From the IMG/VR virus record IMGVR_UViG_3300025927_000137, positions 1 through 25,073 of that record: a stretch of DNA of 25,073 nucleotides; one strand, 5' to 3'. A program made the translations under genes and the position numbers. A model generated the notes under the pieces. It made no database searches, had not been told where the DNA came from, and saw nothing but the letters and a program-made list of their open reading frames with translations. Each line of letters begins with the position of its first letter. Within the stretch, counting starts at the first letter, position 1. The DNA is from a virus. This document shows, in pieces, positions 1-22,359 of the stretch.

Positions 1-1634
1 TATGCGCCATATAAGCGATTGACAAAGTTATAGGCACCCGATACCCCAACTATCTGCCATAATGCATCCTCTGACTTTAAATCGCGTTCCCATGTCAAAT
101 TTCTAAACATCTTCCATGAATGTCCGTACATCTCATACTTTGAGGTCATACACCTGTCAAGCCTGCGCCCCATATTCTCGCTTGCGAACCTATATGGCAG
201 CCATTGACCGTATGGCGTATCATGCCTATCCCGCCGTTCGTAATTAATATCGATTTGAGTCTTGTCAACAAAATTCAGGTCGAAAAAGTGCTTATCCAAA
301 CTAACATATTCAGCATTAACAGGCCAAAGACAAATATTACCCTCTGCCTGCAATGCACGAACCATAGGAATGAGCCAAAGTATATCGCCCAAACTGGCAA
401 ATTGACCTATGACGTATTTATCCCGCTTGACGTGCTGAATCGTTCTTCGTGGATTAGCGCCATGTACGCCAAACTGGTCTGTCAGTATTTTATTCGGCTG
501 ATTATATCCTTCAAATGCAAATCGTTCAGCAACATCGTCGGATGCGAACCTGATACCATGTTTTGTTTCAAGATAACGGCGGTATATACGGCATATTTGG
601 TGATCTTCCGGGTGGAATTGAGTTATCTCCGGGTCTGTAGCTAATATTTCCATAAGGCGCTTAGAGCGCAATGAAAAACCACCGTTACCTACATTAAGGC
701 CATCCTTGTACCACCACGGTGCGCCGATATAATCATATTGCAACCAATCATTGTTCCATGATTTCCAGTTATTCACAAATCCGTCATGCTGAAATACCAA
801 TACATGCGATGTTGGTATGTGCTTGTACATCTCATAGATACATAGCCTCGAATATTCCTCTTTACTTCGGATGTCAGGATGTAATAAACTGATATGCCCG
901 AAGTTGATTTGTTCGGTGCATTTTTTTAATGGCTCTTGTATGCGCTGCGGGTTGTTATCAATACATAGCAAAGTCACATCGGGCAAGTCCCAAAATTTAA
1001 AGTCGTCAGCAACATCCGGATAGTCATGGTGTCCTAAACTACTTTCGATACCTATGTGCTGAACAACTGATTGCTTGAGGCAGTAAGCCCCGTCCGATTT
1101 AAGGCAGGCGACGTGGTCCCAATTTGACGGCTCTTGCAACGCGGGTTTGATATATCTCTCATAAGCGACACGGTCAACGCAAAAATTGATTCCACCGACT
1201 GATTGTTTTTTGTACATAGTATCGGTTTCTTCGATTATTTTGTGCCTGCCCATTGTGGTGCAGTGGAAGCCGGTTAGTAAAGTACCGGGGATGTAGTGCT
1301 TGATAAGTTCGGTTACAGCGTTTGGTTTGATTAGAGTATCGGAGTCGAAGTTGATGATGTGTGTGAAACCCTGAGCGAATAATGCGTCATATCCAGATAA
1401 AAGTGTTTTCTTGACTCCGATATTATTATCATTGGTTCGCATCCGAATAGTTTGAATATTTTCGTTTTTCCTGAAATAATCATTAAGCAATTGACTTACT
1501 GCCAAATCGGTACTCCTGTCGTTTATGATTAATATCTGATGCGTCTCGGGTAGCTGCAGCCTTTCCAACGACCAAAGACATTCTTTTAGATAATTCGGGC
1601 GGTTAAATACCGGAACTAATATCCCTATTTTCAT
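1..1634 (-). CDS. Multi-domain glycosyltransferase (GT2 + DUF5672-like + GT9-like), 3' end outside window
   Basis: The frame is open for 544 codons from ATG at 1634 to the window edge, so the C-terminus is missing. Residues 1-130 look like a GT2 (GT-A) glycosyltransferase: start MKIGILVPVFNRP, then NDRSTD, then a DSD metal-binding motif at 97-99. Residues about 240-390 resemble DUF5672 (FQHDGF, IGAPWW, NGGFSLRS, HPEDHQICRIYRRYLE). From about 405 a third segment (VIGQFASLGDILWLIPMVRAL) looks like the start of a GT9/heptosyltransferase-like GT-B fold. Such proteins transfer sugars from nucleotide donors to glycans or proteins. The start overlaps the stop of the upstream gene by ATGA, so the two are probably translationally coupled. 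Acceptor and donor cannot be told. The GT2 call is firm; the GT9-like call is tentative because the domain is cut. Confidence 0.85.
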   Translation of the reverse strand, partial: MKIGILVPVFNRPNYLKECLWSLERLQLPETHQILIINDRSTDLAVSQLLNDYFRKNENIQTIRMRTNDNNIGVKKTLLSGYDALFAQGFTHIINFDSDTLIKPNAVTELIKHYIPGTLLTGFHCTTMGRHKIIEETDTMYKKQSVGGINFCVDRVAYERYIKPALQEPSNWDHVACLKSDGAYCLKQSVVQHIGIESSLGHHDYPDVADDFKFWDLPDVTLLCIDNNPQRIQEPLKKCTEQINFGHISLLHPDIRSKEEYSRLCIYEMYKHIPTSHVLVFQHDGFVNNWKSWNNDWLQYDYIGAPWWYKDGLNVGNGGFSLRSKRLMEILATDPEITQFHPEDHQICRIYRRYLETKHGIRFASDDVAERFAFEGYNQPNKILTDQFGVHGANPRRTIQHVKRDKYVIGQFASLGDILWLIPMVRALQAEGNICLWPVNAEYVSLDKHFFDLNFVDKTQIDINYERRDRHDTPYGQWLPYRFASENMGRRLDRCMTSKYEMYGHSWKMFRNLTWERDLKSEDALWQIVGVSGAYNFVNRLYGA

Positions 1635-2272
1635 CCCCTTAAAATTAAATGTAATCTTTTCAAACTATCAATATCCCGTGTCCTGTCGCGAATATCATTA
1701 CTCGTCTTTGCCCGGAAGTGCCATGAATCAAACCGCTCAAATCCGTTCAATCCCGCATCGATACGGATATTAACAGGCGTTGGTTCAATGCGGCCCTGCA
1801 ATAATTGGCCTATCAAAACATCCTCCGCTCCGTGTTCGGCTTCGGTTAATTCATCCCGCAATATATCCAAAACATCAGGTGAAAAAAAGATGCCAGCGCC
1901 GGAAATATAAGGCAATGCGCCGACATTATCAGGCCATCCATTCAGCCAACCTGCATAACATTTGGTTTTCGGCAGATTATAGGCTTCTTTGATAAGTCCG
2001 TCTTTCAGGATATAGGAGCATGAATTGGTTCGGAAGATAAAATCATATTCTTTATAATCTATCGCATCCAAAGCCAGTTTGAATTTCCAATGCATCATTT
2101 CGTATTTGTCGGAACAATCGACAGATAATTCATTACCGAGCCATCCTTTGTTGCCGCCGTAATAGTAGACAACGTCAACGTCGTTATGCGGCACATCTGT
2201 TAGTTGCTGCAATTGCATGAATTTATCGAAAGGCCATTCGGTGTAGGAAAGGACGAGGATTAGGATTTTCAT
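1631..2272 (-). CDS. Putative glycosyltransferase (fringe/GT31-like)
   Basis: 213 aa starting MKILILVLSYTEWPFDKF. Features seen are an N-terminal hydrophobic strand, YDFIFRTNSCSY near residues 77-88 (the position where fringe/GT31-like enzymes carry the donor-site loop), PYISGAGIFFSPDVLDIL near 121-138, and a later acidic EDVLIGQLL. The order 'SGAG, short helix, EDVLIG' is typical of GT31-like and related GT-A enzymes. No classical DXD is evident, so the metal site is uncertain. The gene lies between a 57-aa gene and the large glycosyltransferase with 4-base ATGA overlaps on both sides, placing it in one operon of sugar-modifying genes. It could instead be a non-catalytic member of that fold. 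Function in glycan transfer is inferred from motifs and neighbours. Confidence 0.6.
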   Translation of the reverse strand: MKILILVLSYTEWPFDKFMQLQQLTDVPHNDVDVVYYYGGNKGWLGNELSVDCSDKYEMMHWKFKLALDAIDYKEYDFIFRTNSCSYILKDGLIKEAYNLPKTKCYAGWLNGWPDNVGALPYISGAGIFFSPDVLDILRDELTEAEHGAEDVLIGQLLQGRIEPTPVNIRIDAGLNGFERFDSWHFRAKTSNDIRDRTRDIDSLKRLHLILRG

Positions 2273-2442
2273 AGATTTCTACATTCAACAAGTGATATGA
2301 TTTCATTTATTGATAATAGCAGCCATTTAAGAGTTCCGGTGTACCCGTCTCTGGTTAATTGAAGATTAAAAAATTCTTCTTTATTTGTTGATTTAAGAAC
2401 CCCGTTTTTAACAAGTATTTCTAAAATTTCTTTTTCTTCCAT
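2269..2442 (-). CDS. Small hypothetical protein, 57 aa
   Basis: 57 aa starting MEEKEILEILVKNGVLKSTN and ending LVECRNL. It fills the gap between the epimerase (stop 3 bases upstream of this start) and the glycosyltransferase-like gene (ATGA overlap at 2269-2272). That spacing is the main evidence that it is translated. The sequence is mostly helical in appearance, with a short hydrophobic stretch (KWLLLSINEIISLV) too short and mixed to be a sure membrane helix. I do not recognise a family. Confidence 0.6.
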   Translation of the reverse strand: MEEKEILEILVKNGVLKSTNKEEFFNLQLTRDGYTGTLKWLLLSINEIISLVECRNL

Positions 2443-2445
2443 GAT

Positions 2446-3234
2446 CTATAATTTTAACATCCTCATAATCCCCTCCTCAAACCCAATGCATCCCGGTATC
2501 CCCGGACTTGCCACGCTATATTGCATATCGGTTTTTGAAGGTGGAAGTTTCATTATTTCAAGCCTGCGACCCTTAACCCGCTCGATAACAGCAATAGCCT
2601 CCATTATCGTCATGCCCTTACCCGTACCAACATCGACTAATCCCGGAGGTGAGTCTAAATTATCAATGATCGCCCGAACAGCATCGTCAATGTAAATAAA
2701 ATCCCGTACCTGCTGGCCGCCGTTGATAATAAGCCTGTCTTTCTCTAAAGCGGCCTTAACTATACCCTTGTTATTGCCATGCCCGTAGATGTTGAAGAAC
2801 CTTAGCCCAGTCGCGTTCTTGCCGATTGCAAGATGCTCAATATAGCGTTTAGTATAAGCATAAGGATTAGTCAGTTCTGCCGCGCTGGTGCTGCTTGCGT
2901 ATATAATCCGCGTCGGTATGCTCATTATCTGCTTCGTGTAAACGATATTGCTATCGAATAGTTCAGGGATAAACGAATCGGACGTAGTGGTTACGGCGGC
3001 AAGGTGGATGATGTAATCGGGAATAGTTTCGGGTAATTCGTTATAACCTCCGCATATCACATTATAATCTGATAGCTTCGGCAATAAATGCCTGCCAATA
3101 AAACCGTTCGCCCCGGGCATAAATATTGTTTTTTTATCGTTCAATTTAACTCCTGTTTTTAAATTCTCCGACCAGTATAGTGTTTCATCAGGTGGGATGT
3201 CTTTTAGTTCGGTGGATGGGGGTAGGGTGTTCAT
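2446..3234 (-). CDS. NAD-dependent epimerase/dehydratase (extended SDR)
   Basis: 262 aa. A Rossmann nucleotide-binding motif GANGFIGRHLL lies near residues 42-52. It is followed by IIHLAAVTTT (the HLAA strand typical of sugar-nucleotide SDRs), an ASST segment and the catalytic YxxxK as YAYTK near 126-130. RDFIYIDDAVRAI near 185 is the usual second signature of this family. Members interconvert or dehydrate nucleotide sugars (for example UDP-glucose 4-epimerase or GDP-mannose dehydratase relatives); the exact substrate is not readable. At 262 aa it is shorter than the usual 300-340, mainly in the C-terminal substrate domain. It starts 3 bases after the methyltransferase stop, so the two are cotranscribed. 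It probably supplies an activated sugar to the downstream glycosyltransferases. Confidence 0.88.
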   Translation of the reverse strand: MNTLPPSTELKDIPPDETLYWSENLKTGVKLNDKKTIFMPGANGFIGRHLLPKLSDYNVICGGYNELPETIPDYIIHLAAVTTTSDSFIPELFDSNIVYTKQIMSIPTRIIYASSTSAAELTNPYAYTKRYIEHLAIGKNATGLRFFNIYGHGNNKGIVKAALEKDRLIINGGQQVRDFIYIDDAVRAIIDNLDSPPGLVDVGTGKGMTIMEAIAVIERVKGRRLEIMKLPPSKTDMQYSVASPGIPGCIGFEEGIMRMLKL

Positions 3235-3237
3235 TTA

Positions 3238-3909
3238 TCAGACAAGGCGCTTTTTAGTTATGATATAACCAGGGCCGCTTTTTATATACTCAACCTCAAT
3301 CATTTGGCCAATTGTTTTTAAAATTGCTTTAAAATAATTCTTCGTTATCTCAACATCTGTTGGTATACTCGCCAAAATTGAGTTCCAATAATTTTCGCCT
3401 GTTTGAATCAGTTCCTCCTTCTCGCACACCACCACAAAACTATGATTAAAGTCACACCCACTTACCCAAACCTTATGCCCAAGTTCGGACAGATAACCGC
3501 CGATTTCGCTACCGTCAAATGAATGAAGATGCTTCCTGTTATTCTTCGGATGCCAGTACTCCTGCGATTTGTGAGGCAGGTATAAAAACAAAATTCCGCC
3601 GACTTTAATCTTCGTCATCCAGTAATCAAGCACATTGTAAACATTCTCTTTGATGTGCTCCAAACAATGGCTGCTAAACAAATACTCAAACTGCCCGTTT
3701 GGCAATCGCATAGCATCATACGTCGGATCGATAGACGGCTCAATGCCGATAGCTCCGGGTAGCATCCATTTCTCTTTGGAATATCCCACATCGAGGCCAA
3801 CACCGATACAATAGTGCTGCGCTAACTGGCGTATCCATAATGATGCGCCTCCTATGGCCTCATGGGAAGGGTATTCAACACCGTTAAACTTTATAAATTC
3901 GAGTGGCAT
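3238..3909 (-). CDS. Class I SAM-dependent methyltransferase
   Basis: 223 aa. GVGLDVGYSKEKW near residues 36-48 fits motif I of a Rossmann methyltransferase. IGIEPSIDPTYDA follows as the second strand with an acidic ribose-binding residue. FEYLFSSHCLEHIKE is the typical 'fDlvvs.hvLEH' motif IV region of Methyltransf_11-like enzymes, and VGGILFLYLPH is the post-IV strand. It is most like enzymes that methylate sugars or small molecules, not DNA: there is no DPPY or Cys-based catalytic motif. It sits directly upstream of the epimerase in the glycan operon, 2 bases after the small membrane gene, so O-methylation of a sugar is a reasonable inference. Substrate unknown. Confidence 0.8.
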   Translation of the reverse strand: MPLEFIKFNGVEYPSHEAIGGASLWIRQLAQHYCIGVGLDVGYSKEKWMLPGAIGIEPSIDPTYDAMRLPNGQFEYLFSSHCLEHIKENVYNVLDYWMTKIKVGGILFLYLPHKSQEYWHPKNNRKHLHSFDGSEIGGYLSELGHKVWVSGCDFNHSFVVVCEKEELIQTGENYWNSILASIPTDVEITKNYFKAILKTIGQMIEVEYIKSGPGYIITKKRLV

Positions 3910-3911
3910 AG

Positions 3912-4169
3912 TTATTTTTTTTCGCGTAAATGCTTAATACCTTCGCTTATTAACAGGTATGGCATGTATAAAATAGCCAAGTAAAACGGCGAACCGAATA
4001 TGCTTATCATGGTTATTTGAGGCCAACCACTTAGTCCTTCATTATAATGTATACACCAAAATGGTATCAATACAATTGATGATACTATCGCTACAAGAAA
4101 ATACAATCCCAGCCAAAAAGCATCGTCTAATTCTTTTATTTTTTTCATGGTTGTTTTATTTAGTGGCAT
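3912..4169 (-). CDS. Small membrane protein with two transmembrane segments
   Basis: 85 aa with two clear hydrophobic stretches: about residues 18-39 (FWLGLYFLVAIVSSIVLIPFW) and 52-73 (ISIFGSPFYLAILYMPYLLI). The tail is charged (KHLREKK). A hairpin membrane topology with basic ends is compatible with a holin, but no lysis enzyme lies nearby in this window, so that stays a guess. A second ATG at residue 8 (position 4148) is an equally possible start. It follows a 41-aa gene by 2 bases and precedes the methyltransferase by 2 bases, so it belongs to the same transcript. Confidence 0.65.
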   Translation of the reverse strand: MPLNKTTMKKIKELDDAFWLGLYFLVAIVSSIVLIPFWCIHYNEGLSGWPQITMISIFGSPFYLAILYMPYLLISEGIKHLREKK

Positions 4170-4171
4170 AT

Positions 4172-5191: not shown

Positions 5192-6475
5192 TTAACTTGC
5201 GAAAGCATCAAGCGTTACCTTAACGAATGATTCAGGATAGAAGTTCGCTAAAGCAATTCTTTCTTCGATGAGAACGGTTGTAATGTTCTGTACAAAGTTA
5301 GTCCCGTTTTCCTGAGAGAAGCGCAATGTTGCATCTGCCTTTTGGAAGATACGGGCACCCATCGCAAAATCACCTACAAATCCTTCTGATGGATTAAACA
5401 CTGTATGCTGAATTACCGGCAAATCTCCTAAATACAGCATATTGTTTGACGCATTGAAGCGGATAGGATAAGTGTATAACTGCACATCCCCGGTTGATTT
5501 GTTAATCAGAATTTGCAGATAATCTTCCGGCGAAGTCCATGCGGCAGTAGCAACCCTTTTCTGGCGACGTACATAAGTCGAAGCAGCCAGTAACTTATCG
5601 ATGTTATTCGATGAGGTTGTTACGCCTGAGTACGGCAATGAAAGAGCGGTGGCGTTGGTATACAACCCTGAAAGGTTATTGGTAGTGCCATTACCTTTGA
5701 ACACCTGAATATCCTCCGCATCATACAGTTTCATTGGAAGATCGGCAGACAGGAATGATGTTGCTCCTACAATATCCTCCAAAAACTCATCGGCTACGTT
5801 AATCCAGCCTGCGATTTTAACTACAGGTGCATCAACGATAGTTTCAAGGTAATCGAATTGAGGCTTGGTAGTTGCCGGAGCAACAGTAGTAATTACACCA
5901 TTAGCGTCATCATTGGCAAAGCGTACATAACGAACCAGGTTAGAAATAGTAGGAGACACCGGGATAAAATTACGGGCATGTACTATTTCGTGAGCCGGGC
6001 CGATAATTGGCGTATACAGCGGAGCGACAGCGCCGGAAGTAACCAACATTGTTGATGGGGCTTTCAATTCAACCGCATACCCTCCCTTTTTATTGGACAG
6101 ATATTGCTTAATTTCAGCCTCTTTACCTTCCATTGCCTCTGCGATAGAATCCCCGAATGTTTTACGGCGCTGGTTGTCCTGTTCAACTTTCGCCTTATTC
6201 ATCTCGGTGAGTGAGTTTTTTAACTCATCGATCATCTCCTGCTGGCTCTTGCCTTTAGCTTCGGATGCTTCTTTAAAGTCCTTTAGGGAATTTTCCAGTG
6301 ATTCTGATTTTTGCAGAATGGCTGCGTTTTGATCTTCGGTAGCTTTTTTATAGCCCTCTAAAGATTTCTGAGTATCGGCATCCAAAGCGTTGAATGCCTT
6401 ATTCATAAGTTCGATACCCTGCTTTACTTCTGCGGAGGCATCTTCACTTGCTTTGATAAATATTTTTTCTGACAT
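5192..6475 (-). CDS. HK97-type major capsid protein
   Basis: 427 aa. Residues 1-115 are charged and coiled-coil-like (MSEKIFIKASEDASAEVKQG, with repeated Glu/Lys heptads), typical of the N-terminal scaffolding (delta) domain removed by the prohead protease. From about 130 the shell domain begins (GGYAVELKAPSTML, PLYTPIIGPAHEIVHARNFI), with the usual HK97-fold features: an extended loop with Gly/Asn-rich segments (FKGNGTTNNLSGLYTN) and a C-terminal strand region (DATLRFSQENGTNFVQN, EERIALANF). It forms the icosahedral shell. It follows the protease by 2 bases, the canonical order portal, protease, capsid, though here the plus-strand cassette splits the run. A minus-strand terminator lies downstream. 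Confidence 0.95.
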   Translation of the reverse strand: MSEKIFIKASEDASAEVKQGIELMNKAFNALDADTQKSLEGYKKATEDQNAAILQKSESLENSLKDFKEASEAKGKSQQEMIDELKNSLTEMNKAKVEQDNQRRKTFGDSIAEAMEGKEAEIKQYLSNKKGGYAVELKAPSTMLVTSGAVAPLYTPIIGPAHEIVHARNFIPVSPTISNLVRYVRFANDDANGVITTVAPATTKPQFDYLETIVDAPVVKIAGWINVADEFLEDIVGATSFLSADLPMKLYDAEDIQVFKGNGTTNNLSGLYTNATALSLPYSGVTTSSNNIDKLLAASTYVRRQKRVATAAWTSPEDYLQILINKSTGDVQLYTYPIRFNASNNMLYLGDLPVIQHTVFNPSEGFVGDFAMGARIFQKADATLRFSQENGTNFVQNITTVLIEERIALANFYPESFVKVTLDAFAS

Positions 6476-6477
6476 TT

Positions 6478-7260
6478 TTAGTTAATTGTAAAAGACGTGA
6501 AAACTGATTTCTGACTATTGATCGCCAATCCTGCAAAGAGAGAAACCGGCTTTGCTTCTTCTTGAGTGCCCTTCGGCGGCTCTGCTTCCACAAGTGATTT
6601 TTTACCCAATTCGTATAGTTGCGAACCGTATTGTTTTACCGCTATTTCAAGCAGTGCAAATGTTTCATCTGTCAATGTGCCATTTCTGAGCAACTTCATC
6701 ATGATGCCTACCTGATCGTTTATCTGTTGTGGTGTCAATGATTTGAAGCCGGTAAATGGGGTTTGGTCATTTGCGCCCAATGTCACACATGACCCTTCAT
6801 ATAATTTTATCTCACTTATCTCCCTGTAGGTATCCCATTCGTAGGTAGCATCATCCTTCACAACATTGCTCCACTTCATAGCGACATAGCCGATAGAGTT
6901 TTGTATGACCAAGCCGCTGCCCATCAACTCTAAAGCATCTTTGCCGTAGCTTGTTTTATCGTTCACCGGCGTTTCGTGGTACAAACCCTGTGCTCTTTCC
7001 TCTAACAGAGTCGGCTTGCCTAATGGTTGCGCCCAATTATGTTGGTTAAGAAAAAAGATTTCATTTGTTCCAATCGGGCCGCGTTCGGCTATGGTTTTTG
7101 CAAATGCTCCGGGCTTGATAATATCGTCGTCGTAATCAAGATTATTAAATGCAGACCAGTACCCGGTGACAATCCCGTTCTTGGTATCAATGTCGCCGAC
7201 CTGCATTGTCATTGATTTGAATTGCATTAATCCGTATGGGGTATCTTCTTTTTGTTGCAT
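6478..7260 (-). CDS. HK97-family prohead protease
   Basis: 260 aa from ATG at 7260 (start MQQKEDTPYGLMQF). The frame stays open further upstream to 7365, but that part would overlap the divergent promoter and regulator gene, so I chose the later start. GIVTGYWSAFNNLDYDDDIIKPGAF is the classic prohead protease opening (GyasvFn..D..gDii.pGAF). FFLNQHN carries the likely catalytic His, and a later YVAMKW...EISEIKLYEGSCVT matches the region with the catalytic Ser. It cleaves the capsid scaffold domain during head maturation. The C-terminal 70 residues are a charged extension. Promoter for this start: only a weak TATATTTT box at 7271-7278 with no good upstream element. Confidence 0.92.
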   Translation of the reverse strand: MQQKEDTPYGLMQFKSMTMQVGDIDTKNGIVTGYWSAFNNLDYDDDIIKPGAFAKTIAERGPIGTNEIFFLNQHNWAQPLGKPTLLEERAQGLYHETPVNDKTSYGKDALELMGSGLVIQNSIGYVAMKWSNVVKDDATYEWDTYREISEIKLYEGSCVTLGANDQTPFTGFKSLTPQQINDQVGIMMKLLRNGTLTDETFALLEIAVKQYGSQLYELGKKSLVEAEPPKGTQEEAKPVSLFAGLAINSQKSVFTSFTIN

Positions 7261-7303
7261 TATGGGTATAAAAATATAGTATAAAAAAATAACTTTAGGA
7301 TTT

Positions 7304-7334
7304 TTTGGTATACAGAAACGTTTCTGTATATTAG
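7304..7334 (+). promoter_or_regulatory. Bacteroidota-type promoter of the HTH-like gene
   Basis: TTTG at 7304-7307, 19 bases, then TATATTAG at 7327-7334 (consensus TAnnTTTG). The ATG follows 4 bases later at 7339, so the transcript would be leaderless or nearly so. The spacer is filled by the 22-bp palindrome, which would let a bound protein cover both elements. Confidence 0.5.
7309..7330. promoter_or_regulatory. 22-bp perfect palindrome (candidate operator)
   Basis: Arms TATACAGAAAC and GTTTCTGTATA meet without a spacer and without mismatch. The site occupies the spacer of the rightward promoter and lies 49 bases upstream of the protease start on the other strand. The adjacent 74-aa HTH-like protein is the natural candidate to bind it and repress its own gene. 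The palindrome is seen; the binder is inferred. Confidence 0.6.
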
Positions 7335-7338
7335 CGGG

Positions 7339-7563
7339 ATGACAGCAACTGAACTTTTCGACCACATTACATCAGAATCAAAATGGTATGCCGGGTACAC
7401 CACACCGCAACATGCCAATCTTTTGAAAAAACGGTTTAAGGCCGGTACACTTGAATTTCAGACGCTTACCAAATTGTTCAATCACTTTGGGTATTACCTT
7501 TATGCGGATTGGATATTTCAAGGTGACAAACCGAAACCGGTTGAACTTGTGGAACGCGCATAG
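7339..7563 (+). CDS. Small HTH-like regulator of the plus-strand cassette
   Basis: 74 aa: MTATELFDHITSESKWYAGY, then HANLLKKRFKAGTLEFQTLTKLFNHFGYYL. The pattern 'sWY.gy ... qa..lKkrf.aG.l....l.kll..fGY' is that of small Xre/lambda-repressor-like helix-turn-helix proteins of Bacteroidota phages, as I recall them. The C-terminus is a short Pro/Lys tail. It is the first gene of a two-gene plus-strand cassette inside leftward head genes, with a dedicated promoter and a perfect palindrome immediately upstream. Probable role: autoregulator of the cassette, possibly also of the divergent protease and capsid genes. The HTH call is by pattern only. Confidence 0.6.
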   Translation: MTATELFDHITSESKWYAGYTTPQHANLLKKRFKAGTLEFQTLTKLFNHFGYYLYADWIFQGDKPKPVELVERA

Positions 7564-7576
7564 GGTAGTACTTATG
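7547..7576 (+). promoter_or_regulatory. Candidate promoter for the structured RNA
   Basis: TTG at 7547-7549, 19 bases, then TACTTATG at 7569-7576 (one mismatch to TAnnTTTG). It overlaps the end of the HTH-like gene. Transcription would begin near 7581-7585, just before the outer stem of the RNA element at 7592, which is why it is worth noting. Prediction from consensus only. Confidence 0.35.
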
Positions 7577-7591
7577 CTGGTTTTAAGATAA

Positions 7592-7682
7592 AAAATAACA
7601 AGGCACCTATGCTCGACCACAGAGATAGCGCGTAAAAGCCAAAATAGGAACAGATGGACGCATTTGTTAGCCTTGTTATTTT
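7592..7682 (+). ncRNA. Structured intergenic RNA candidate with three-way junction
   Basis: A 13-bp perfect outer stem pairs AAAATAACAAGGC (7592-7604) with GCCTTGTTATTTT (7670-7682). Inside it are CCTAT (7606-7610) pairing with ATAGG (7644-7648), and an 8-bp hairpin AACAGATG-gacg-CATTTGTT (7649-7668) with one G-U pair. Single unpaired A residues separate the stems, giving a compact three-way junction. The 3' strand of the outer stem is U-rich and leads into more U (TTATTTTACC), so the element could also end its own transcript. It fills the gap between the HTH-like gene and the secreted protein gene. It could be a small RNA, a 5' leader controlling the secreted protein, or a large terminator. 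I do not recognise a known RNA family. Confidence 0.5.
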
Positions 7683-7694
7683 ATTTTACCTTTA
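7663..7694 (+). promoter_or_regulatory. Bacteroidota-type promoter before the beta-helix gene
   Basis: TTTG at 7663-7666, 20 bases, TACCTTTA at 7687-7694, then ATG at 7698. It overlaps the 3' half of the RNA element, so RNA from an upstream promoter and initiation here may exclude each other. As placed, the message would be leaderless. The same -7 sequence TACCTTTA occurs at 17266-17273. Confidence 0.45.
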
Positions 7695-7697
7695 GGC

Positions 7698-9770
7698 ATG
7701 AAAAGAACATGCTTAACCCTAATTATCAGCCTGCTATCTTTGGCTTGCATGGCAGACGACACCGCTGCTATCCAGTTGGCTTTAAACTCCAGCAACTACA
7801 CGCTGCCAGTAAAACCCGGCGGTTACTTCATTTCATCGACTATTACAGTTCGCCATAACTTTAACCTGAATGGCCAAACGGTAACCTATACCGCTTTAAC
7901 CCAACGGGCTTTATTGATACCGGTTATCAATACGCATATAACAATCAGCAATGGCACGTTAATTGGCACGAGCAATGCATCGAACCCGAACGGTAATATT
8001 GGTATTGATTATGAAGGGGATTACTCAACTATTGACCATTTAACAATAAGTAATTTTACGGCCTATGCGATACTGGCAAACAACGCAAACCATCCGACAA
8101 TAACTAATAACACGATAACGCGCATAGGTTATATCGCCATAAGTTTAATATCAAGCGCCCCGATTACCGGCGGATTGATCTATAATAATACGATTGACAG
8201 AACCGATCAGTTACCAGCTTCGATATCGCAGGCTGCTTTTATTCTTCGCGGCGCAGTTGGTGACACTTCATCAAACTGGATTATACGAAAAAACACAATC
8301 AATATGCCGCTAAGCCCCTCCGCTATTGCTGCTGAATGCTTTGAGGGTAGGTATGTTAAAAACGTCCTGATTGACAGCAATACTTTTAATGGAAGTTCGA
8401 TTGCAAACTCTATTGTTCGCTCTGCCTTTGTAGTTTCAAGGCATAATACTTACTTAAAGCAATCTCATGAGGCTTTAGAGTTCGCCGACACAAGAAATTC
8501 AAGGGCTGATTTTGAAACTATTGGTAATCAGTACGCAAAGGGTATATTTATTGATGGATTTTCCGCTTATGGTGGCGATAATACAGATAGCGTAACTAAC
8601 TGCACAATTACAACCACGGCGGATAATTCCATCGAAGCCAATGGGGTTGTTGCAAATATTTATATAGCGAACAACACTTTATCAACCCGTAATGTCGGCA
8701 TAAGGCTACAAAAAGCAAATAACTTTACGATACAGAACAATACCATGACCGGCAATGGCGTGGGTACAAATGCGATCTATTTGGATAATTCAACCGGCAA
8801 CGTGTCGTTGGCCTGCGGCGCGATGACTGGATTTATCAATAAGCCGTTACATATCTACGGCTCTACGCCAATTGTAACGGCAAATGTATCCTTGACCAAT
8901 TTTAGTTCAACTACTACCGGCTACAGCACCTACCTGACTGGCGGTGCAACTGTTTCGGCTATTACCGTTACACCTGTTCCAATGCCGACCGGCTGTACCT
9001 CCGGATCTGCACCAATCATAACTTATGCGAATCAGTCATTTACGGCATTAACAACTATTAGCCCGGTTAATCCGACTAATACAGGTGGAACACCATCAGG
9101 TTACAGTATAAGTCCAGCATTACCAAGCGGGCTATCATTCAATACGACCACGGGTGTGATAACCGGTACGCCAACGCCATATCAAACGGCGGTTATATAC
9201 ACCGTAATAGCAAGCAACCTAATCGGTGCTGATACAACTACATTTACAATTGCTATCGCAAACCCGGCGTTTACTTTCGGCTCATTGCCGACAAAAACAT
9301 ACGGGAATGCTGATTTTTCACCTGGGGCGACAAGTCCGGCAAGTATAGGTTATACAAGTTCAAATTTATCGGTAGCCGTCGTTACAGGCGGTCAAATACA
9401 TATCGTCAATTCAGGTAGTTCAACTATAACGGCTGATAATGGCTATCAGACCATTCCGCAAACATTGACGGTGAATAAAGCGGTACTGACAATCACAGCT
9501 AATAATAAAGCTCGTCCTGTCGGGACAGCAAATCCGCTATTGACAGTTGCCTACTCAGGTTTTGTGAATAACGAGGATCACACCGTATTAACATCACAGC
9601 CGACCATCTCAACAACAGCAAATATTGGGTCACCTGTCGGGGCTTACCCCATAACGCCATCGGCCGCGACCGCGCCCAATTATAGTTTTGTGTATGTTGA
9701 TGGTACGATGTATGTGTTTAATGATTTGGGGCCGCTGATATATAACGGAAAGTTAATAATTGCTTATTAA
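7698..9770 (+). CDS. Secreted right-handed beta-helix protein with Ig-like and MBG-like domains
   Basis: 690 aa. Residues 1-19 are a signal peptide (basic KR, then CLTLIISLLSLAC, likely cleavage after CMA). About 25-420 is a repetitive Asn/Thr-rich region of pectate-lyase-like parallel beta-helix turns (many 'NNTI', 'SNTF', 'IRKNTINM' rungs). About 434-523 is a He_PIG-like Ig domain (the ALPSGLSFNTTTGVITGTPT signature). About 524-690 is 'mostly beta' MBG-type repeat material (LTVNKAVLTITANNKARP, TVAYSGFVNNEDH, then SFVYVDGTMYVF) common in surface proteins of Sphingobacteria-like Bacteroidota. No type IX secretion C-terminal signal is obvious. The gene runs against all head genes; its TAA overlaps the convergent MuF-gene stop at TTAA. 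It could be a host-expressed surface protein (lysogenic conversion) or a receptor-binding or depolymerase-like tail protein; the signal peptide favours the first. Confidence 0.85.
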   Translation: MKRTCLTLIISLLSLACMADDTAAIQLALNSSNYTLPVKPGGYFISSTITVRHNFNLNGQTVTYTALTQRALLIPVINTHITISNGTLIGTSNASNPNGNIGIDYEGDYSTIDHLTISNFTAYAILANNANHPTITNNTITRIGYIAISLISSAPITGGLIYNNTIDRTDQLPASISQAAFILRGAVGDTSSNWIIRKNTINMPLSPSAIAAECFEGRYVKNVLIDSNTFNGSSIANSIVRSAFVVSRHNTYLKQSHEALEFADTRNSRADFETIGNQYAKGIFIDGFSAYGGDNTDSVTNCTITTTADNSIEANGVVANIYIANNTLSTRNVGIRLQKANNFTIQNNTMTGNGVGTNAIYLDNSTGNVSLACGAMTGFINKPLHIYGSTPIVTANVSLTNFSSTTTGYSTYLTGGATVSAITVTPVPMPTGCTSGSAPIITYANQSFTALTTISPVNPTNTGGTPSGYSISPALPSGLSFNTTTGVITGTPTPYQTAVIYTVIASNLIGADTTTFTIAIANPAFTFGSLPTKTYGNADFSPGATSPASIGYTSSNLSVAVVTGGQIHIVNSGSSTITADNGYQTIPQTLTVNKAVLTITANNKARPVGTANPLLTVAYSGFVNNEDHTVLTSQPTISTTANIGSPVGAYPITPSAATAPNYSFVYVDGTMYVFNDLGPLIYNGKLIIAY

Positions 9771-10570
9771 ACTGCTTTTAATATCGGCAATCCGCTTGCA
9801 GAAAGTATAGGAACGTAAATCGTAGTACATCTACAATTAATTACTTCATTTGCTGGTAATGACATATCTCCAGGATACATACATTGATAACCACCTACTA
9901 TGAAATAATCGGTGTTTTCTACCTGCTGACCGTTCGCGTCCACATGATTAGGCCGCGTGTTATTATCAAGTATTGATAACCATTGCTTTGCAGTGAGGTA
10001 ATCTGCATCTTCGTTTCCTAAAGCCGCCCCGCAATTAGCCGCAGTAGTTGTTTCCGTTCTGCTTATCATCATAGCCCTGTAGCGTGTAAATCCGTCAGAG
10101 CCTAAAGTATCTTCCAAATAGGTGGCTTGCTCCGATAGTGTCATGTCGGCGCTGTCTGATAAGGCCTTTCTTATCTTTTCACGAGTGGTTTCTGTTACAT
10201 CTGAAACTCGCTGAGCAGCATGGTCTGTAAAGAAAGCTTGCATAAGCCTTGACCACTTCTCGCTAAAAAACGACATGATGCCCTTTTGAGAGCGTCCAAC
10301 GCTGTTTATCCAGCGCCGGGTATATGCGGCCTGCCTAACGCCAATTTTTAAATACAGGTCACGATAGGCGGTTTCTACAGGTTGTTTTGAGACGAGATAA
10401 TCAGCAAGTTCCGGCGTGATGCTGCCATATCGTTTGATATGGTTCAAAACCGGCGCTACCTGTGCCTTTAATGCAGTTCTGAATAGCTTAAATCCATATC
10501 GCTCATAGCCACCATGCAACTTTCGCCATTGTAACTCAAATTCTGCTATATTGATATTTACGGTATTCAC
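9767..10570 (-). CDS. Phage head morphogenesis protein (SPP1 gp7 / MuF-like)
   Basis: 267 aa. The N-terminal 150 residues are helical and charged. The C-terminal part has the MuF signature: MISRTETTTAANCGA, WLSILDNNTRPNHVDANGQ (the 'D.rtR..H...dG' motif), MYPGDMSLPANEVINCRCT. Members are minor capsid proteins attached to the portal and needed for head assembly or for DNA exit. The start overlaps the portal stop (ATGA at 10567-10570), the usual order. Its stop overlaps the stop of the convergent beta-helix gene. Confidence 0.92.
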   Translation of the reverse strand: MNTVNINIAEFELQWRKLHGGYERYGFKLFRTALKAQVAPVLNHIKRYGSITPELADYLVSKQPVETAYRDLYLKIGVRQAAYTRRWINSVGRSQKGIMSFFSEKWSRLMQAFFTDHAAQRVSDVTETTREKIRKALSDSADMTLSEQATYLEDTLGSDGFTRYRAMMISRTETTTAANCGAALGNEDADYLTAKQWLSILDNNTRPNHVDANGQQVENTDYFIVGGYQCMYPGDMSLPANEVINCRCTTIYVPILSASGLPILKAV

Positions 10571-11973
10571 ATGCCCAGCCCTGCACCGGCTGTAATAGTC
10601 GAATCTGTCAATTGTATGTCTTCCAATAATTGATAGGTTTTTTTGACGAGTAACTTATCAGCCATCGGATCAAGTATTTTACCAAAACCCTGGAATTCGC
10701 GCTTCTCATTGTATGTAAGATGATCCATTGCGTTCAATGCCTGTGCCGTCTTTAGGAAATCATCGGCCAGTTCAGGCAACACGGAATAATCAAACATCCA
10801 CATTAACCGCTCTCCTGGTTTTTCGTATTGAGGGCATGTATCGCGGGTCAGTTTATCGGTTATCAGGTTGCCCAATGTCATTACCGGGTTGTAGATGAAC
10901 TGCTTCATGTGGGCATCTACGTTATTGTCAGTAGATGCGCTCATATCGTTCAATAATGTAATTGGAACCTGATATGCATTAGCTATATCTACCCTGTCAA
11001 ACCGAAGCGATTCAATAATCTGCAAATCGGCTGACGGTAACCCGAACTGTGTCCATTTTGCCGGTGCCCCAGATACGAAAATTCGTTTAACCAAATCATA
11101 TCCGTTCTTTGCTTCGGATATCTGCTGCTTAATATCATTCTTTACCTTCGGATCGCTAATAGGCGGAACTCCCGGTGCAGCCTCCGGGGATAACATGCCA
11201 TATACGCCGCCGTTCTTCATTTGTTTGTTCTGTTCAATCCTTGCATCTTTGTTTTTTACAAGCGTCATTATCTGCGCACGTAATGGTGATTGCCCGTATA
11301 GCTGGCTGCCGTAGGTGGTAAACTCAGGATTGAATGTCTTGAAATGGCTCACCGCATCGCCTGGGAAGTCAGGTATTTCCATCGTATAATTGCGCGAATT
11401 ATACACGTTGTACCCCTTTACTGGCTTTAGTTCACCGCCTGATATGATGTGAATATATGGGGATGGCAATACATACATTTGCGTCCATTTCCGCGACTTT
11501 GGCAACCCTACATAGTAGTTATAGCTATTACCTGTAAGCAGGTAAAATCCGGCCAATTGTTTTAACCATTCTGTTGTGGTTTGGTATGGATTCGGCTTTT
11601 GTATCAGGTCATTAAGCTGCGCAATATACGTTTCCTGTATGCCTTTAATTTGGATTCGATAAAACTCAGCTTTCACCATATCGGATTGACGCAGAACTTT
11701 ATATTTCTGCGCTTGCTGAATTTTATCCTCTTTAATGGAGTATAATATCAGCGGACAGTAAGATAGCTTGCTTAAAATTCTGTCAATACAGGTATAAACA
11801 TCGCCGTTGCCCTGGTAGCCATTTTGTACGTAATTTAGTGGATTGTCATTGAAATAGATAGGTTGATTGTCGCCTATCCACCGGAACATATTCTCATTAT
11901 AAAGCCCCACAGCGGCGAGGGTATTAACCACGTCTTTCTTAGTAAATAAGCCCAGCCTGTTCAATATGTCCAT
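10567..11973 (-). CDS. HK97-family portal protein
   Basis: 468 aa. Typical portal features: NGDVYTCIDRILSKLSYCPL near the N-terminus, LNDLIQKPNPYQTTTEWLKQLAGFYLLTGNSYNY near 120-155 (the 'P...t...f.......l.GNay' region), and a C-terminal ADLQIIESLRFDRVDIANAY followed by VPITLLND, characteristic of portal proteins ('...ia..fgVPp.ll.d'). A dodecamer of this protein forms the DNA entry channel and docks the terminase. It has a near-perfect promoter directly upstream, so portal, MuF and perhaps later head genes can be transcribed separately from the terminase genes. Confidence 0.95.
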   Translation of the reverse strand: MDILNRLGLFTKKDVVNTLAAVGLYNENMFRWIGDNQPIYFNDNPLNYVQNGYQGNGDVYTCIDRILSKLSYCPLILYSIKEDKIQQAQKYKVLRQSDMVKAEFYRIQIKGIQETYIAQLNDLIQKPNPYQTTTEWLKQLAGFYLLTGNSYNYYVGLPKSRKWTQMYVLPSPYIHIISGGELKPVKGYNVYNSRNYTMEIPDFPGDAVSHFKTFNPEFTTYGSQLYGQSPLRAQIMTLVKNKDARIEQNKQMKNGGVYGMLSPEAAPGVPPISDPKVKNDIKQQISEAKNGYDLVKRIFVSGAPAKWTQFGLPSADLQIIESLRFDRVDIANAYQVPITLLNDMSASTDNNVDAHMKQFIYNPVMTLGNLITDKLTRDTCPQYEKPGERLMWMFDYSVLPELADDFLKTAQALNAMDHLTYNEKREFQGFGKILDPMADKLLVKKTYQLLEDIQLTDSTITAGAGLGM

Positions 11974-11980
11974 TGGCTAA

Positions 11981-12011
11981 CAAATATATTGTTTTATTAT
12001 TGATTTGCAAA
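11981..12011 (-). promoter_or_regulatory. Consensus Bacteroidota promoter of the portal gene
   Basis: On the minus strand: TTTG (12011-12008), 19 bases, TATATTTG (11988-11981), then the ATG after 7 bases at 11973. Both elements and the spacing match the Bacteroidota housekeeping consensus exactly. It fills the 40-base gap between the terminase stop and the portal start. Confidence 0.7.
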
Positions 12012-15182: not shown

Positions 15183-15420
15183 AATCGTGTTAATTTAACA
15201 ACCGTGTTAGCTATCGTGTTAACATGCATCCCTACATATAGGGATGCTGTATTAACATAACATACGTTAGCCTGAAAATTTAGTATGTTAACATACTTTG
15301 CAAAAACTGCGTTTTTGATATAGTTAGCCATGTTAATTAGTATATTTTAGTGTGTTAACATAGTAGTTTTAAAATGGGCAATCTTCATCAAGTGTGTTAA
15401 TATCGTAGTTAACATGGCTA
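15183..15420. repeat. Iteron-like repeat region, candidate replication origin
   Basis: The A/T-rich gap between the ATPase and the primase-like gene contains three direct copies of CGTGTTA (15186, 15203, 15215) and many variants of TGTTAAC. It also has a 16-bp palindrome with centre GTTAAC (15282-15297), a 7-3-7 palindrome CAAAAAC-tgc-GTTTTTG (15301-15317), and inverted 12-bp copies of TAGCCATGTTAA at 15325-15336 and 15409-15420. The last copy lies inside the ATPase coding end. A strong hairpin at 15226-15247 is part of the same region. Position between replication genes and repeat density suggest an origin or a multi-site operator. No protein gene is seen in 15183-15368. Confidence 0.5.
15226..15247. 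other. Perfect 9-bp hairpin in the repeat region
   Basis: GCATCCCTA pairs with TAGGGATGC across the loop CATA. It is the only G/C-rich element in the A/T-rich gap. There is no T run after it on either strand, so it is unlikely to be a simple terminator. A single-strand initiation or nicking site is conceivable. Confidence 0.5.
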
Positions 15421-17141: not shown

Positions 17142-17145
17142 AAAA

Positions 17146-17176
17146 CAAAGATAGTAATTTTGTTATAATAAACTAA
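17146..17176 (-). promoter_or_regulatory. Leftward promoter of the divergent control region
   Basis: On the minus strand: TTAG (17176-17173, one mismatch to TTTG), 19 bases, then TATCTTTG (17153-17146), a perfect TAnnTTTG. The ATG at 17141 follows after 4 bases, so the message would be leaderless. An imperfect palindrome TAAAC...GTTTA (17169-17187) covers the upstream element and may be an operator. Confidence 0.55.
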
Positions 17177-17297: not shown

Positions 17298-17438
17298 ATG
17301 AAAACAAAACTAACCCAATCCTTCCGCCACGTATTCGCTGGCGAGGGTGATAACAGAGAGATGGCGGTGGTGTTTATAGCACTGTTCGTTCCGGTAATGA
17401 TGTTGATAACGGTGTTTGGGCATGCGGGGGCTTATTGA
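17298..17438 (+). CDS. Small membrane protein, first gene of the plus-strand train
   Basis: 46 aa starting MKTKLTQSFRHVFAGEGDNR, then a hydrophobic helix (MAVVFIALFVPVMMLITVFG) near residues 22-41 and a short end. One membrane segment with a basic N-terminus. It has the only promoter and A-rich leader of the region directly upstream. The next gene starts 1 base after its stop. Function unknown. Confidence 0.65.
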   Translation: MKTKLTQSFRHVFAGEGDNREMAVVFIALFVPVMMLITVFGHAGAY

Positions 17439-21405: not shown

Positions 21406-22359
21406 TTAAAATAGTTTGGTTTCATAATAATCGCCTTTTCCATTCCAGAATATCTTCTCGATCGTTTTCTTTTTGTTATTAGTAGCCGATAGACTGGAGC
21501 GATGTGTAAAGGCGTGTACTTTCTTAAACGGCGCATCGTATTCTGATATGTAAACCGGATGCGGGCATTCATTAGCCCATTGATAAAAGCGTTCATAATC
21601 AAAACCACCTTCCTTATATTCGCCTGTTCCTTTATACGGAATATCGCAATAAATAACAGGATTGTTACCTGTAATAACTACGTTTTCATAGGATAAATTC
21701 GTAATTTGTAGGTTTTGTAGGTTTTGTAGGTTTTGTAGGTTTTGTAGGTTTTGTAGGTTTTGTATCCTAGTTAAATGTTCAATAAGTTCCAAATTTTGAA
21801 CTCTATCTTCTTTACCTATGCCGAAAATATTTGAATTTTTGTTTTTTATATAATCGCAAAAGTAAATTCTCCTTTTTTGAACATCTTTTATATTTGCCAA
21901 TTCTGGAATATTTAATTTTAATTCAGACATCGATTTTAGGCATCGATTAACAACAAATTCATGTGCAAGCCTTTTTAATTCCTCAATATTAGCGCCATAT
22001 AAATAACCTTTTTCACTATTATTACCAAAACTCCAGCATGTCATAACATACCCACTATACCAGTCTGCATCAGTCCTTGCCAATTGATCAAAGAAAACCT
22101 CCCGTGTTACCCATTCGTAAAACTTAGGCTCTAACTCACGGTGGGTTTTTAGGTAGTCAACTAAATGGTATATGTGCTGGTTTAACTCGTTGTAATGGAC
22201 GTTAAACCGATAGTCTTTAATTGCAGTAAACGAAATCGAACCGCCGCCGCCGAATAAGTCGTAGAAGTCAGTTAATCCTTTGTGCCTTTCGGTAATGAAG
22301 TGAAGTATATCACTGGCAAGTTTGCGCTTACTACCCATGTATGGTATACCGAGGCTCAA
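21406..22359 (-). CDS. D12-class adenine-specific DNA methyltransferase (Dam-like)
   Basis: 317 aa. IPYMGSKRKLA (5-15) and YDLFGGGGSISF (33-44) form the SAM-binding motif X/I of the D12 family. The catalytic motif IV is CDIPYKGTGEY near 234-244 (DIPY in place of DPPY, a known variant). A target-recognition region lies between. It methylates adenine at N6 in a short site, probably to protect phage DNA or to mimic host methylation. Residues about 199-218 consist of a Gln-Asn-Leu repeat encoded by a 9-bp tandem repeat (21705-21764), just before motif IV. The start overlaps the stop of the winged-helix gene (ATGA at 22356-22359). Confidence 0.92.
   Translation of the reverse strand: MSLGIPYMGSKRKLASDILHFITERHKGLTDFYDLFGGGGSISFTAIKDYRFNVHYNELNQHIYHLVDYLKTHRELEPKFYEWVTREVFFDQLARTDADWYSGYVMTCWSFGNNSEKGYLYGANIEELKRLAHEFVVNRCLKSMSELKLNIPELANIKDVQKRRIYFCDYIKNKNSNIFGIGKEDRVQNLELIEHLTRIQNLQNLQNLQNLQNLQNLQITNLSYENVVITGNNPVIYCDIPYKGTGEYKEGGFDYERFYQWANECPHPVYISEYDAPFKKVHAFTHRSSLSATNNKKKTIEKIFWNGKGDYYETKLF
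21705..21764. repeat. 9-bp tandem repeat TTTTGTAGG inside the methyltransferase
   Basis: Five exact units of TTTTGTAGG between 21713 and 21757, plus a near-perfect unit before (first base differs) and a partial unit after, about 6.6 copies. The unit is 9 bp, so changes in copy number keep the frame and alter the number of Gln-Asn-Leu triplets on the minus strand. Confidence 0.95.

Follow-up and report, generated by a model that had tools for sequence, protein, structure and literature searches.

A probable accessory slot led by a regulator, between MuF and protease in a siphophage-like Bacteroidota phage genome

What are two genes doing that run against the head genes, between the genes for the MuF minor head protein and the prohead protease? 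The window analysed is the whole 25,073-bp IMG/VR record IMGVR_UViG_3300025927_000137, and the region in question (7300-9770) encodes proteins of 74 and 690 amino acids (aa) on the plus strand. By open reading frame (ORF) calls, the gene coordinates, the opposite orientation and the TTAA shared at 9767-9770, by which the stop codons of the 690-aa and MuF genes overlap by 4 bp, are as given in the initial annotation. That annotation had treated the region as a single inserted, self-regulated cassette, perhaps serving lysogenic conversion. Comparison with related phages favors a different reading, to which a probability of about 0.6 is assigned, namely that 7300-9770 forms an accessory slot headed by a regulator, set between MuF and protease in the genome of a siphophage-like Bacteroidota virus. 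In the sequences compared, a gene of the phrog_26076 family lies divergent from the protease in many relatives, usually with a promoter -7 box a few nt upstream, and the content between this small gene and MuF varies from phage to phage. A second contig, IMGVR_UViG_3300009098_000015 (37,702 bp), carries 7300-9770 at 100% identity, and a one-off assembly error is therefore excluded.

The junction was compared in 89 related contigs showing both the MuF and protease genes; the contigs are redundant and the counts are not independent (L-numbers and G407 below are labels of related phage contigs or records). The gap between the two genes is at most 60 bp in 64 of the 89 and 182-2245 bp in the other 25, so the pair lies between genes that are adjacent in most relatives, and its description as an accessory plus-strand unit with a plausible operator holds. 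None of the 89 carries the 690-aa gene. The 74-aa protein matches the phrog_26076 profile at 3.6e-4, compared with 4e-9 for its homologue in L004 and 2.7e-49 for gp45 of Cellulophaga phage phi12:1, and its assignment to this family rests on the profile match together with the same slot and the same orientation. A six-sequence profile identified homologues in L004, L099, L145, L146, L149 and L151, all in the MuF-protease slot, running counter to the head genes and diverging from the protease (the L099 contig stops short of MuF). A shortened homologue sits at the same place in L144 (L144:4652-4798), ending after ~30 matching residues, and is possibly a decayed copy. Among cultured phages, the homologues are gp45 of phi12:1 and gp47 of phi18:1. 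A later scan added L200, L201 and L202/L203; those of L200/L201 adjoin a protease without detectable similarity that is named by position only, and the L202/L203 contig starts at or inside the homologue. The family is single-copy in all seven matching records searched whole and occurs in about ten lineages, including the lytic Cellulophaga helsingorviruses. In 395 bacterial genomes, five weak matches were obtained, all in unrelated reading frames or neighbourhoods. Between the protease and the small gene of L099 (L099:3560-4000) there is a tRNA-Leu-like stretch, for which ARAGORN made no call.

What follows the small gene differs among phages. The slot holds HNH nucleases in L146 and L151, a GIY-YIG nuclease in L004, glycosyltransferase-like genes (judged by eye) in L200 and L201, and small uncharacterised genes elsewhere. 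In other relatives the slot carries a canonical HTH_3 protein of the helix-turn-helix (HTH) type (L150/L152, 2e-9) or weakly ribbon-helix-helix-like proteins (L005/L006, L147, L007), and in L156/L157, which are without the 74-aa family, it contains a counter-oriented DUF4468 protein with a signal peptide. In the window, L146, L202 and L203, the slot runs right up to MuF, its final gene overlapping the MuF stop or ending within a few bases of it. A conserved small gene with changing content downstream amounts to a slot with a fixed first gene. The single cassette of the initial annotation is therefore not borne out, since the 74-aa gene is conserved and single-copy at the slot while only the 690-aa gene is private; to judge by this distribution, they are two parts of different age. 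Presence of the cassette in all relatives, named in the initial annotation as a refuting condition, applies by half: the putative regulator is found in many relatives, the cargo in none, and both run antisense to the head genes instead of being cotranscribed with them. An accessory block also occupies the MuF-protease junction of phage phi10:1 (L185:28248-31842), with four counter-oriented genes, eight co-directional genes and two tRNAs.

To locate promoters, the window was scanned with two models. Escherichia coli sigma-70 promoters occurred at chance level (10 found, 11.3 expected), while the Bacteroidota pattern TTTG-N19-21-TAnnTTWR, with the consensus taken from two studies (PMC9723704; PMC7366714), was found 9 times against 3.0 expected, a number reached in 0 of 100 shuffles. 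Two of the matches are the predicted promoters of the 74-aa and 690-aa genes, identified by motif only, whose boxes end 4 nt 5' of the ATG at 7339 and 3 nt 5' of the ATG at 7698; the claim that the genes bring their own promoters thus holds in Bacteroidota form. A third match precedes the portal gene. Across lineages, the first slot gene has a -7 box no more than 40 nt away in 9 of 10, compared with 0.67 expected from shuffles, the box having been picked after several of the lineages had been seen. L200 and L201, found later, carry TATATTTG 4 and 3 nt 5' of the ATG. In Flavobacterium psychrophilum the -7 box is located at -12 to -5 (PMC9723704). With this spacing, both predicted starts fall on the ATG or no more than one base from it, which would make the transcripts leaderless. 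Such mRNAs are rare in hosts, at 5.5% in F. psychrophilum (PMC9723704), and ~3.7% of 5' untranslated regions of B. thetaiotaomicron are under 10 nt (PMC7366714). In the phage as a whole, a Bacteroidota -7 box stands 3-9 nt before the ATG in 7 of 64 ORFs (the three promoters of Table 1 and 17142-17153 in the window, the others on the contig to its left); phi12:1 has no -7 box at this distance. These positions suggest leaderless or very short-leader mRNAs.

The 22-bp palindrome TATACAGAAACGTTTCTGTATA is perfect, as the initial annotation had it. When the whole window was Markov-shuffled, any perfect palindrome with 11-bp arms turned up in 5 of 200 trials; for the 81-bp intergenic region by itself the figure was 2 of 300. 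In the promoter of the 74-aa gene, the palindrome takes up the 19-nt spacer and overlaps the -7 box, and because of this overlap a protein seated on it would be expected to block that promoter. A structure model of the 74-aa protein has three helices with basic residues. The best guess from this arrangement is that the 74-aa gene is autoregulated through the palindrome, its product being a candidate DNA-binding autoregulator. An inverted repeat better than chance was also found at the junction of phi12:1, where its 12-bp arms were reached in 0 of 300 shuffles; those of L004 and L147 exceed chance marginally. Elsewhere in the window, two palindromes share one intergenic gap (15226-15247, GCATCCCTACATATAGGGATGC, and 15282-15297, AGTATGTTAACATACT) and form a possible operator pair.

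Several observations weigh against the slot reading or its parts. The palindrome sequence is not common to the relatives, and in the remaining lineages the inverted repeats at this junction are no better than chance. The test of the promoter motif was partly devised after sight of the sequences. Pfam returned no match for the 74-aa protein at E 1 or for its L004 homologue at E 5, and neither Foldseek nor VIA-align found a fold match to the model. Of the HTH-like gene first described, the helical character is thus retained in the model, with neither an HTH profile nor a fold match that would place it with Cro/CI-type proteins. The cargo is not set apart as foreign by its GC content, which is 40-45% in the region as in the flanks, and the 690-aa gene lies outside the tail operon, unlike the signal-peptide virion proteins discussed below. 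The missing family and fold matches and the unconserved palindrome would also suit an early 74-aa protein with a role other than DNA binding, such as host takeover, the palindrome then serving a host regulator or another phage regulator. This explanation is considered unlikely given the three-helix model with its basic residues, the fixed divergent position, and the canonical HTH_3 protein that takes the place of the 74-aa gene in L150/L152.

The spacer between the two genes folds at -33.5 kcal/mol (z -2.7), and 1 of 200 shuffles was as stable. The structured RNA that had been proposed here is real but weak: it folds better than shuffles, finds no credible match in Rfam, and is without a comparable spacer in the relatives, for example in L149, where the next gene starts inside the small-gene stop. 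Its 3' arm coincides with the promoter of the 690-aa gene. The possibility of an attC-like element in the spacer was set aside, as the core-site match was poor by eye. A weak terminator-like site lies at 7558-7577 and none after 9770; the number of terminator sites in the window is at chance level.

Accessory genes in phage late operons are known as morons, with HK97 and lambda providing examples. As in such loci, an accessory gene or genes with a promoter of their own stand here between late genes that touch in relatives, antisense to the operon. Unlike in morons, the leading slot gene is kept in single copy from lineage to lineage with only the downstream cargo exchanged, the base composition, which in morons commonly though not by strict definition departs from that of the flanks, is here like theirs, and nothing points to a temperate life style. 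For tailed phages, moron loci have been described (PMC7067206; PMC6469090), and antisense orientation to lytic genes together with own promoters is a signature of those in prophages (PMC7067206). This signature, the export signal of the 690-aa protein, and MBG and He_PIG domains like those of secreted proteins of Chitinophagales and Mucilaginibacter are what a classical moron of lysogenic conversion would offer, one whose two genes arrived together and are expressed from the prophage, altering the host surface (e.g. superinfection exclusion). Such a moron is improbable here. A search with Phage_integrase (tyrosine integrase) gave no match in 14 records, many of them fragments, serine recombinases not being searched. 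The 74-aa gene is conserved without the 690-aa cargo, and its family occurs in helsingorviruses, among them the lytic phi18:1, whose plaques are clear and in which lysogeny genes could not be identified (PMC11946311).

The 690-aa protein itself was found to have the signal-peptide, beta-helix, He_PIG and MBG organization first proposed for it. Its N-terminal export signal, MKRTCLTLIISLLSLACMA, is of signal peptidase I or lipobox type (LSLA-C17, a pattern match at C17). The following C-M-A-D-D has acidic residues at +4/+5, without the K or Q that forms part of the surface lipoprotein export signal of C. canimorsus (PMC5080379), and the DD is perhaps the start of the beta-helix. Residues 102-267 match the right-handed beta-helix family Beta_helix PF13229 (1e-11; 45.2 bits, curated cut-off 25.9), followed by He_PIG PF05345 (2.3e-8), which matches solved SraP adhesin chains at 7.3e-6, and MBG_2 PF18676 (5.7e-21). 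Among Pfam and NCBIfam matches there was no C-terminal sorting domain of the type IX secretion system; ~19 aa remain after MBG_2. The C-terminal 170 aa, the Ig/MBG stretch, are up to 52% identical to He_PIG/MBG_2 surface proteins of Ferruginibacter, Chitinophaga and Mucilaginibacter, which have no close relative of the beta-helix part. The protein was absent from 50,697 phage records searched, and its beta-helix part gave one weak, frame-broken match in 395 Bacteroidia genomes. A single-sequence structure model (pLDDT, the predicted local distance difference test, 35) was unusable. Two phage counterparts were noted. On the 100-kb phage contig of L086, a beta-helix/MBG protein without signal peptide follows a fibre gene at a distance of a few small genes, and among the tail/lysis genes of G407 there is a beta-helix/He_PIG protein that has a signal peptide and is 39% identical in its He_PIG part. 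From its domains, the cargo is probably an exported, fibre-like, sugar-binding protein.

Does a signal peptide speak against a virion protein, as had been argued for this one? To answer this, the N-termini of 69 proteins marked as virion proteins by tandem mass spectrometry (MS/MS) in the records of six Cellulophaga phages were read, with signal peptides judged by a crude rule and MS/MS lists being those of the depositors; some may be co-purified exported proteins. Eleven of the 69 satisfied the rule, of which one (phi13:1) looks spurious. The other ten, with Sec-like signals, are all tail-end proteins, namely phi10:1 gp91-gp94, phi19:1 gp101-gp104 and phi39:1 gp25 and gp26 (L185:41847-47391, L189:117-6254, L191:16625-20172), and several are annotated pectate lyase. 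In Bacteroidota phages, a signal peptide is thus no proof against virion membership, and a common shortcut is removed. A Bacteroides phage paper treats absent signal peptides as support for phage origin (PMC6199706). Among the papers searched, none dealt with the route by which Sec-signal phage tail proteins enter virions.

These proteins lend weight to a further explanation, in which the virion bears the 690-aa protein as an accessory spike or fibre, encoded off the tail operon, and the 74-aa gene is an unrelated, conserved neighbour. Like the 690-aa protein, phi10:1 gp93, phi19:1 gp102/gp104 and phi39:1 gp26 (pectate lyase or structural by annotation) combine a Sec-like signal with an extracellular, probably beta-helical domain. 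The tail operon of the phage itself encodes a 1082-aa fibre-like protein with a signal peptide, whose start overlaps the stop of a preceding Mtd_N-like gene, and the L086 relative of the 690-aa protein stands downstream of a fibre gene. The Cellulophaga proteins differ in lying in the tail operon and in having no significant sequence similarity to the 690-aa protein, the homology of its beta-helix part to MS/MS-listed proteins being no better than chance. The 690-aa gene runs opposite to the head operon strand from a promoter of its own, and the phi18:1 slot genes gp46/gp47, a different cargo though, are not in the MS/MS virion list of that phage. Such a spike is a credible alternative that falls short of even odds. 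For the location of the protein as such, association with the virion comes close to an even chance, placement on the cell surface or secretion is quite conceivable, and some other site or role has a small share. Large fibre-like proteins with signal peptides were seen in tail/lysis regions at L090:6133-9381 (the contig left of the window), L173:2559-10253, L170:12200-15631 and L094:2704-5781; among these proteins of the phage and three relatives there are one GDSL lipase domain, one He_PIG and one YadA stalk, and comparison with cultured phages gave no useful match.

With the regulator-led slot as the preferred reading, the following mechanism is proposed. A dimer of the 74-aa protein would sit on the palindrome within its own promoter spacer, and host polymerase would make leaderless mRNA until the protein accumulates. 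The protein may also time the protease-capsid unit on the other side. The 690-aa gene would be the cargo of this particular phage, transcribed from its own promoter. The protein, leaving the cytoplasm through Sec or as a lipoprotein, would then work there as a beta-helix adhesin that binds or cleaves glycans, whether on the virion as an accessory spike or at the infected-cell surface. A bolder version, considered rather improbable, is that the small gene is a conserved late-gene switch in a wide group of Bacteroidota phages, with a self-repressed leaderless promoter and control of protease-capsid timing, and that the module behind it is a permanent docking site for exchangeable nucleases, glycosyltransferases and exported adhesins, the exported cargo being one of a class of Sec-exported phage spikes that join the virion outside the cytoplasm.

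Among the closest known arrangements is that of Helsingorvirus (phi12:1 gp45-gp44, phi18:1 gp47-gp46; also phi17:1), where the homologous small gene occupies the corresponding position and likewise diverges from the prohead protease, an inverted repeat lying between the two. There, the second slot gene encodes a 100-aa coiled-coil-like protein instead of an exported beta-helix, the slot genes are separated from MuF by more genes of the same direction (glycosyltransferase, methylase), and the -7 box is farther from the ATG. An odd insert may in this way become a rule, a fixed regulator-like gene with a variable cargo slot within a capsid operon, and the rule can be put to the test with phi18:1, a lytic phage cultured on Cellulophaga baltica #18.

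Table 1. Coordinates of the slot and flanking features in the window
Feature	Position	Strand	Basis or remark
Major capsid protein	5192..6475	-	PF05065 1.3e-19
Prohead protease, leads the protease-major capsid protein unit, divergent from the slot genes	6478..7260	-	Peptidase_S78 5.6e-20; phrog_80 2e-35
Divergent intergenic region	7261..7338	.	A/T box near protease start
Predicted promoter of 74-aa gene, Bacteroidota-type	7304..7334	+	TTTG - 19 nt - TATATTAG
Perfect 22-bp palindrome, candidate operator	7309..7330	.	Fills spacer, overlaps -7 box
74-aa small helical protein, candidate DNA-binding autoregulator	7339..7563	+	phrog_26076 family
Structured spacer, 11-bp closing stem and inner hairpins	7564..7697	+	Folding; no conservation seen
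Predicted promoter of 690-aa gene, Bacteroidota-type	7663..7694	+	TTTG - 20 nt - TACCTTTA
690-aa predicted exported protein	7698..9770	+	Signal, beta-helix, He_PIG, Ig-like, MBG_2, short tail
MuF minor head protein, convergent with the slot genes	9767..10570	-	PF04233 (Phage_Mu_F) 1.4e-11
Portal, with predicted Bacteroidota-type promoter at 11981-12011	10567..11973	-	phrog_12 3.7e-36

The A/T box by the protease start (TATTTTTATA, protease sense) was found again in 7 of 10 relatives. In coordinates, IMGVR_UViG_3300009098_000015 begins ~20 kb to the left of the window and reaches window position 17419. In two comparisons the identity was 99.99% and 99.94%, with no more than one or two mismatched bases, so that the two records together give ~45 kb of one phage. 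This encodes portal, MuF, protease, HK97-type capsid, connector, tape measure and tail proteins, as well as fibre-like proteins and recombination genes. In two relatives (L146:11160-12596 and L151:3052-3600), the capsid ORF carries an N-terminal extension with two hydrophobic stretches that the other relatives do not have. At window positions 1-4170, glycosyltransferase-like, sugar epimerase-like and methyltransferase-like genes sit between the capsid and connector genes, a block that recalls the glycosyltransferase cargo of L200/L201. A D12-type adenine methyltransferase (21406-22359) has a tandem (Asn-Leu-Gln) repeat in mid-protein, and the underlying 9-base repeat could be variable in length.

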